32,773 nt of DNA, from NCBI GenBank assembly GCA_018970885.1, contig JAGWVL010000010.1:1-32773 (forward strand). The letters are read 5' to 3'. Every line of letters starts with the position of its first letter. The stretch's first letter is position 1. Position numbers and translations under genes: made by a program. The notes below the pieces were generated by a model that did no database searches, had not been told where the DNA came from, and saw only the letters and a program-made list of their open reading frames with translations. This stretch comes from Actinomycetales bacterium (GTDB taxonomy: Bacteria; Actinomycetota; Actinomycetes; Nanopelagicales; Nanopelagicaceae). This document shows, in pieces, positions 24,381 to 26,327 of this stretch.

Positions 24381-24407
24381 TCTCACAATATGAGATCTCT
24401 ATCTCAT
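24381..24407. promoter_or_regulatory. Candidate transcription-factor site: three phased half-sites TCTCA-n5-TGAGA-n6-TCTCA upstream of the ilvB leader promoter
   Basis: ATGAGAT-CTCT-ATCTCAT is a perfect 7-bp inverted repeat (24390-24407). An additional TCTCA half-site lies at 24381-24385. Half-site starts are 10 and 11 bp apart. Confidence 0.5.
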
Positions 24408-24410
24408 CCC

Positions 24411-24439
24411 TTGACGTTGAGCCTGCTTCATTGGAGAAT
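24411..24439 (+). promoter_or_regulatory. Predicted sigmaA-type promoter for the ilvBNC leader: TTGACG-n17-GAGAAT
   Basis: Near-consensus -35, exact 17-nt spacer, moderate -10 (4/6). Predicted TSS falls at or next to the ATG of the leader peptide (24446). Confidence 0.6.
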
Positions 24440-24445
24440 AACGCC

Positions 24446-24475
24446 ATGAGCACAACATTTGTGGTGGTGATTTAA
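24446..24475 (+). CDS. Branched-chain amino-acid-rich leader peptide (MSTTFVVVI)
   Basis: ATG AGC ACA ACA TTT GTG GTG GTG ATT TAA: four consecutive Val/Ile codons just before the stop, followed by the attenuator hairpins. Confidence 0.8.
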   Translation: MSTTFVVVI

Positions 24476-24476
24476 A

Positions 24477-24505
24477 GGCGCGTGATCGGTAATTGATCAT
24501 GCGCC
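24477..24505 (+). promoter_or_regulatory. Attenuator hairpin 1 (pause/anti-antiterminator)
   Basis: GGCGCGTGATC-GGTAATT-GATCATGCGCC: 11-bp stem with one G-U pair and 7-nt loop, starting 2 nt after the leader peptide stop. Confidence 0.75.
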
Positions 24506-24530
24506 ACCCTCAGTTATCTGGGGGTTTTTT
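24506..24530 (+). terminator. Intrinsic terminator of the ilvB attenuator
   Basis: ACCCTCAG-TTAT-CTGGGGGT followed by a T-run ending at 24530. Confidence 0.85.
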
Positions 24531-24587
24531 CATTTAACGCACATACAAGTTGTGCAGAGCGAAAGACTCGGCTGAAGGGAGATGGGT

Positions 24588-26327
24588 ATGAGCAAAAAGA
24601 TGAGTGGAGCTAGTTCACTCGTGCAATCTTTGGAGTCAGCCGGCGTCGATGTCATGTTTGGAATTCCAGGCGGTGCGATTCTTCCTGCTTACGATCCAAT
24701 CTTTGATAGCAGTATCCGCCACATCTTGGTTCGCCACGAGCAGGGCGCAGGTCATGCTGCAACTGGTTATGCCCAAGTAACAGGTCGTGTTGGAGTGTGT
24801 ATTGCCACCTCAGGTCCTGGTGCCACAAATCTTGTTACGCCACTTGCAGATGCTGCTATGGATTCAGTTCCACTGGTTGCAATTACTGGTCAAGTGCCTT
24901 CGGCTGCAATTGGAACCGATGCTTTTCAAGAGGCAGATATTCGCGGCATAACTATGCCCTTTACAAAGCACAATTATTTAATTACAGATCCAAAAGATAT
25001 TCCGCGTGCAATCGCTGAAGCCTTTCATATTGCTGGTTCTGGTCGCCCAGGTCCTGTGCTGGTAGATATTGCAAAGGATGCACTTCAAAAGGAAACGGAT
25101 TTTGTATACCCAAGCCAACTTTCTCTTCCTGGTTACCATCCTCAAATCGAGCCAACCAGCCAGTCAATCAAAGATGCTGCAGCCCTAATCGCACAATCTG
25201 CCAAGCCTGTTTTCTATGTTGGTGGCGGTGTTATTAAAGCCAATGCTTCAAAGGAGTTATTGCAACTTGCTGAATTAGTTGGCGCACCAGTTGTTACAAC
25301 TTTGATGGCGTTGGGATCTTTTCCTGATAGTCACCCACAACACTTTGGAATGCCAGGAATGCATGGAACTGTCGGAGCTGTCACGGCGCTACAAAAGGCA
25401 GATCTTCTCATTACTTTAGGCGCACGATTTGATGATCGCGTAACTGGAAAGCTTTCAACCTTTGCCGTCCATGCAAAGGTAATCCACGCAGATATTGATC
25501 CTGCTGAAATCGGAAAGAATCGCTTTGCTGATGTGCCTGTCGTGGGCGATCTGAAGCACACAATTGCCGCCCTTATCCCTGCCGTAAAGGCAGAATTTGC
25601 GAAGGGACGCGCAGATCTTGCGCCATGGCTTGCTTCAATGAACAAGTTACGGGCAACTTATCCACTTGGTTATGACACACCTCAAGATGGTTCCTTGTCT
25701 CCTCAATATGTAATTGAACGCATCAGCGCACTTACTGGACCAGAAGCAATCTATGTGGCAGGAGTTGGGCAGCACCAAATGTGGGCAGCACAATTTGTTA
25801 AGTATGAAAATCCACGTACATGGCTTAACTCTGGTGGTCTTGGAACAATGGGTTACGCAGTTCCAGCAGCCATGGGTGCCAAAGTAGGGGCACCTGACAA
25901 AATAGTGTGGGCAATCGATGGCGATGGATGTTTCCAGATGACAAATCAAGAGTTGGTAACCTGCGCTCTTAATAATATTCCGATCAAGGTTGCCATTATT
26001 AATAATGAATCTCTAGGAATGGTTCGCCAATGGCAAACTCTTTTCTACGAAGGTCGATACTCAAATACTAATTTAGAATCAAAACGTGTACCAGATTTTG
26101 TGAAGTTAGCTGATGCTATGGGTTGCGTGGGATTAACTTGCGATCGCCCCGAGGATGTTGATGCAATCATCAAGCAAGCCAACTCAATTAATGATCAACC
26201 CGTAGTTGTAGATTTCCGGGTGTTCCGCGATGCAATGGTGTGGCCGATGGTTGCAGCCGGTACATCAAATGATGACATCAAAATTGCGCGTGAGATGGCG
26301 CCTGACTGGGATTCACAGGAGCTCTAA
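24588..26327 (+). CDS. ilvB: Acetolactate synthase large subunit
   Basis: [73 protein letters not shown] suits ATG 24588; track start 24582 also possible. Confidence 0.96.

Follow-up and report, generated by a model that had tools for sequence, protein, structure and literature searches.

Attenuators upstream of ilvB were predicted in actinobacteria in 2005 (PMC1262725). The ilvL leaders of Streptomyces lividans (PMC8079986) and Corynebacterium diphtheriae (PMC5784534) were found to be leaderless by RNA-seq. In C. glutamicum the 5' end of the mRNA is 1 nt away from the leader ATG, and exchange of three Val codons for Ala abolishes the valine response (PMC11857589). Replacement of LVVI by AAAA likewise abolishes the response in Mycobacterium tuberculosis (PMC13236596).

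A leader of this kind lies upstream of ilvB in the window studied here, a stretch of 32,773 nucleotides from a member of the Nanopelagicaceae (contig JAGWVL010000010.1, forward strand). Along the window ilvD is followed by the element, ilvB (acetolactate synthase large subunit), ilvN (small acetolactate synthase subunit), ilvC, serA, leuB and ilvE. The ilvB gene is assigned to positions 24588-26327 of the forward strand. Its reading frame is open from 24582 and begins with ATG GGT ATG (24582-24590), and the second ATG at 24588 is probably the true start, because it is better spaced to the Shine-Dalgarno sequence GGGAG and agrees with the relatives.

The element itself, read directly from the forward strand, begins with the ORF MSTTFVVVI-TAA (24446-24475; ATG AGC ACA ACA TTT GTG GTG GTG ATT TAA), in which the regulatory codons GTG GTG GTG ATT (Val Val Val Ile) occupy 24461-24472. 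It is followed by a hairpin, H1, of 11 pairs including one G-U (24477-24487/24495-24505). The minimum free energy structure adds the pair G24488-U24494, so that the whole hairpin is 24477-24488/24494-24505. Directly abutting it is an intrinsic terminator, T (24506-24531; stem 24506-24513/24518-24525 plus T-run), which is recovered by folding as well as by an independent consensus scan. The gap between H1 and T is 0 nt and no base is shared. The region 24440-24540 folds with -43.2 kcal/mol compared to -24.5 +/- 3.3 for shuffled sequences (z -5.7), and none of 200 shuffles was as good. The Val/Ile leader ORF, H1 and T upstream of ilvB are thus real, at the positions given for them in a first-pass annotation made from the sequence. 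At the gathering score, Rfam 15 finds only one tRNA in the window and assigns no family to the element, riboswitches and T-boxes included; the best score at the element, 21.4 bits, is below the cut-off of 50.

The closest likeness is to the ilvL type. In the window an ORF with branched-chain amino acid (BCAA) codons lies directly upstream of ilvB, H1 is followed by a terminator, and the geometry of the promoter is that of a leaderless transcript. The ilvL of the Streptomyces ilvBHC operon (S. lividans TK24, MRTRILVLGKRVG) is also a leaderless BCAA ORF upstream of ilvB (PMC8079986), with a GCGCG-containing H1, a gap of 0 nt and a CCCCTCG terminator. It has 13 codons and its stop lies beyond the point where the H1 5' arm begins, whereas the window has nine codons and a stop before H1, the run Val-Val-Val-Ile, no Leu codon and a much shorter H1 loop. 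The absence of Leu codons in this species had been pointed out in the first-pass annotation, and ORFs of the Val/Ile type are found throughout the family.

The ilvBNC leader of C. glutamicum (ilvB-II motif) resembles the window in its leaderless start, its Val-run peptide and an antiterminator adjoining the terminator (PMC11857589, PMC10272879). However, antiterminator and terminator have three nucleotides (GCC) in common there and none in the window, and the C. glutamicum uORF spans most of the P1 hairpin, whereas H1 lies downstream of the Val codons. The element does not follow the ilvB-II pattern in this position of the Val codons, nor in a pairing of the loop to the terminator 5' arm and loop, which is unconserved; this scoring differs from the contact of the motif itself, which is made between the P1 loop and the right (3') shoulder of the terminator. 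In M. tuberculosis ilvB1, with its LVVI regulatory codons tested by replacement, an antiterminator also precedes the terminator (PMC13236596), and the attenuated RNA is ~120 nt compared to ~85 nt predicted for the window. The mycobacterial polycysteine attenuators, as cited in PMC13236596, share with the window a leaderless short ORF sensing an amino acid. They differ in that the amino acid is cysteine and in that they are described there as attenuating translation, not transcription.

Of 90 family loci, 89 have promoter, branched-chain ORF, H1 and T in front of ilvB, which supports the broad reading of the first-pass annotation, an ilvB leader-peptide attenuator, well. The one exception (L050) lacks promoter and leader ORF; a part of H1 and T remains and is joined to ilvD, which we take as a deletion or an assembly collapse. 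A covariance model of the element from the Val codons through the T-run matched 52 of 61 family genomes once each; for genomes whose IlvB match was among those listed, the element is placed just upstream of it. Among loci from named records, 56 were furthermore found to carry orthologous leaders, and almost all of these belong to other actinobacterial families. They include recognisable orthologues in Streptomyces, Mycobacterium (MKSRLLVVIGRRVGA), Nocardioides and Kribbella. Since the same layout recurs in these 56 loci, the window belongs to the actinobacterial ilvB attenuators. We consider it quite probable that the element is a compact orthologue of the actinobacterial ilvL attenuator, in identity and in overall logic. 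Its novelty was overstated in the first-pass annotation, as this kind of attenuator, including the leaderless start, is already published (PMC1262725, PMC8079986, PMC5784534, PMC11857589, PMC13236596). Among the top-ranked results of the literature search no paper named this order (Nanopelagicales) together with attenuation or leader peptides.

Several features indicate what is held constant in the element. Compared to a sister species the leader ORF is identical in 30 of 30 positions, H1 and T in 56 of 57 and the promoter in 32 of 35, but the spacer to ilvB in only 25 of 48. Branched-chain residues make up 43% of the leader residues versus 22% in IlvB, and GTG accounts for 63% of the leader Val codons versus 14% in a reference set of 30 IlvB genes; a choice of rare codons in leaders is a known, though not universal, pattern (PMC1183508). 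Between the last BCAA codon and H1 there are 3-5 nt in 61 of the 67 distinct relatives. The stop codon is found anywhere from 4 nt ahead of H1 to deep within the hairpin, and in the genus of the window it sits at the H1 boundary, which accounts for the unusually short peptide there. Both H1 and T show compensatory changes among the relatives. In H1 there are pairs that change on both sides, for example CG:8/UA:5. In one of the counts for H1 the register was chosen for maximal pairing, and therefore inner H1 pairs such as GATC/GATC versus GAAC/GTTC between sister lineages are the sounder evidence of covariation. One genus (L075, L083, L086) keeps promoter, H1 and T with a leader, MLSRISVRLERAS, that has lost the Val-Val-Ile run, a point against the attenuator reading; sensing may have changed or decayed there.

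A consensus scan predicts the promoter TTGACG-17-GAGAAT (-35 box 24411-24416, -10 box 24434-24439, forward strand), with the -10 box ending six bases before the leader ATG. Transcription is expected to start at or next to 24446, i.e. on the leader ATG. TTGAC and a spacer of 17-18 nt are kept in all 89 relatives. Distances of 4-9 nt from -10 box to start codon were permitted in the scan of the relatives, and the distance found was 6 nt in 77 and 7 nt in 12 of the 89; in the named-record loci it is 6-7 nt in 49 of 56. The -10 box and the start codon are highly conserved, the stretch between them less so. It follows from this constant geometry and conservation pattern that the leader is very probably translated from a leaderless mRNA, an aspect of ORF and promoter that is absent from the first-pass annotation. 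We also considered initiation at a Shine-Dalgarno sequence, as a GGAG is found 10 nt before the leader ATG in the window. A core match of at least 4 nt at -15 to -5 occurs in only 32 of 89 relatives and the GGAG overlaps the conserved -10 box, and for these reasons the leaderless start is preferred.

The dependence of the two hairpins on the ribosome was followed by folding the window with a leading edge assumed to lie 12 nt downstream of the first A-site nucleotide. With the ribosome at the first or second Val codon the minimum free energy structure contains the whole of H1; 10 pairs remain with the ribosome at the third Val codon, 7 at Ile and none at the stop codon. The expected number of H1 pairs is correspondingly ~10 at the first Val codon, 4.9 at Ile and 0.15 at the stop. 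As H1 is whole with the ribosome at the early Val codons and gone at the stop, it reports starvation. T is equally stable in all ribosome states in this equilibrium folding, with H1 free or masked, because the two hairpins have no base in common in the window, and no strand exchange between them was seen there.

The first-pass annotation had described a full set of mutually exclusive hairpins, and this does not hold, since H1 and T share 0 nt and the alternative helix is unconserved. The trp-type arrangement, in which antiterminator and terminator share a strand, is likewise absent from the window. Strand exchange between H1 and T was rejected as the conserved switch: 67 of 89 relatives have an overlap of 1-10 nt, but through lineage-specific pairings, so that no one exclusive pairing is conserved. 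A true strand-exchange switch is formed in some mycobacteria and in Kribbella (L145, L142, L101), where H1 takes in 3-5 nt of the terminator 5' arm. H1 invades T by 5 nt in M. vaccae, as against 0 in the window, and by 3 nt in Kribbella, and freeing H1 cuts the first two T pairs from 1.82 to 0.63 and from 1.49 to 0.47, respectively. The base of T stays closed, or barely opens, when H1 is freed in the window, in M. simiae and in Streptomyces.

Two further pairings had been put forward in the first-pass annotation. Both can be drawn in the window, and the comparison across relatives favours neither. In the first, stalling at Val/Ile codons was proposed to free the loop and 3' arm of H1 (GGTAATTGA, 24488-24496) for pairing with the 5' arm and loop of T (TCAGTTATC, 24510-24518). 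The nine contiguous pairs (seven Watson-Crick and two G-U) are found in the window and in the sister L002, and a helix of this length is reached by just 1-2% of shuffled loops. However, it is missing in 65 of 67 distinct relatives, where 3-6 bp are found, and the mean best helix of 3.81 bp hardly differs from the 3.75 bp of shuffled loops. Moreover, when the ribosome sits at the first Val codon, a fold constrained to contain this helix reaches at best -10.1 kcal/mol compared to -33.7 kcal/mol for H1 plus T, i.e. it is 23.6 kcal/mol worse. Stalling exposes the H1 5' arm, so H1 would win and block the nine-pair helix, and we regard this route as extremely improbable.

The second pairing joins the Val codons to the H1/T boundary (GGUGG, 24463-24467, with CCACC, 24504-24508) and can be extended to seven pairs in the window (GGUGGUG with CGCCACC). 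It could act as an anti-antiterminator when no ribosome is present. This helix is longer with the natural codons (4.93 bp) than with synonymously recoded ones (3.73 bp), but the genomes' own pairs and pairs permuted between genomes both give 4.93 bp, so there is no co-variation. The excess is explained by the preference for GTG together with the shared boundary sequence and not by co-evolution. As H1 plus T is also far more stable, such a role of this pairing is very improbable, if marginally less so than that of the nine-pair helix.

It is likelier than the pairing proposed earlier that H1 itself is the antiterminator, free upon stalling at Val and covered at the stop codon. The observed parts, their conservation and covariation, the geometry of promoter and ATG and the dependence of H1, but not of T, on ribosome position form the basis from which we infer the start of transcription, the stalling of the ribosome and the opposition of H1 to T. 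The promoter would start the mRNA at the AUG of the nine-codon Val/Ile-rich ORF, leading to leaderless initiation. When Val-tRNA is short, the ribosome would stall at the GUG run with its leading edge ending before 24477, H1 would form beside T, and transcription would read through into ilvB-N-C-serA-leuB-ilvE. With Val and Ile plentiful, the ribosome at the UAA (24473) would cover most of the H1 5' arm, H1 would not form, and T would fold and end transcription ~85 nt from the start. A BCAA response through the leader codons is accordingly a prediction for the window, drawn by analogy.

H1 should oppose T by analogy with the antiterminators tested in C. glutamicum and M. tuberculosis. As equilibrium folding leaves T unaffected, the step from a formed H1 to an absent T is one that we infer, and we give it an even chance. 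In the window, H1 would block T either sterically, as linkerless helices at the polymerase exit, or kinetically. One tentative and rather doubtful form of this is attenuation without strand exchange, in which the non-overlapping H1 blocks T by abutting its base in or at the RNA polymerase exit channel, with the leaderless 30-nt ORF as the sensor. The gap between H1 and T is 0 in 30 of the 56 named-record loci, and allowing a difference of 1 nt raises the count to 39.

A second layer of control is suggested by a 16-bp palindrome, TGAGATCTCTATCTCA (24391-24406, no strand assigned), a probable operator and candidate site for an IclR-type regulator (NdgR/LtbR). TGAGATN4ATCTCA occurs as a single exact copy in the genome, ending 4 nt before the ilvB -35 box. 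It is present in 71 of 89 relatives, in 68 of which it ends 4-5 nt before the -35 box. Of two copies with one mismatch in the genome, one (L172 near 1500-1515) lies between a divergent leuC and an IclR-family gene (L172:1521-2237). These sequences suggest that an NdgR/LtbR-type regulator may act at the palindromes of both ilvB and leuC.

Attenuation might instead be weak or lost, with T as a constitutive partial terminator, H1 as a pause or coupling hairpin and a protein at the palindrome as the main regulator. The independence of T folding from ribosome position would fit this, as would the palindrome common to the ilvB and leuC/IclR-gene promoter regions. In S. coelicolor, moreover, regulation was unaffected by substitutions of leader codons (Craster 1999, as cited in PMC1262725), and the relatives of this species examined here have the same 0-nt overlap of H1 and T; the null result weighs against codon-sensing attenuation and is a real warning. 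Against a weak or lost attenuation stand the strongly conserved Val/Ile codons, their distance of 3-5 nt to H1 and the codon choice, which are hard to explain without a translating, codon-sensing ribosome. We therefore consider it unlikely, and the preferred reading remains an attenuator in which H1 responds to the position of the ribosome on the leader.

The role of such a switch is to express the genes of branched-chain amino acid synthesis only when these amino acids run short, and the present data extend a known switch to a family of small genomes that is sampled in depth. From the 67 distinct elements in the alignment it emerges that what is kept is the predicted leaderless start, the distance from the Val codons to H1 and the abutment of H1 and T, whereas a second antiterminator helix is not. 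Should H1 oppose T with no base in common, a steric or kinetic variant has to be added to the models in which attenuation works by mutually exclusive folding. Blocking by abutment, if true, would explain why a zero-gap abutment, rather than an overlap of bases, is kept across much of the Actinobacteria.
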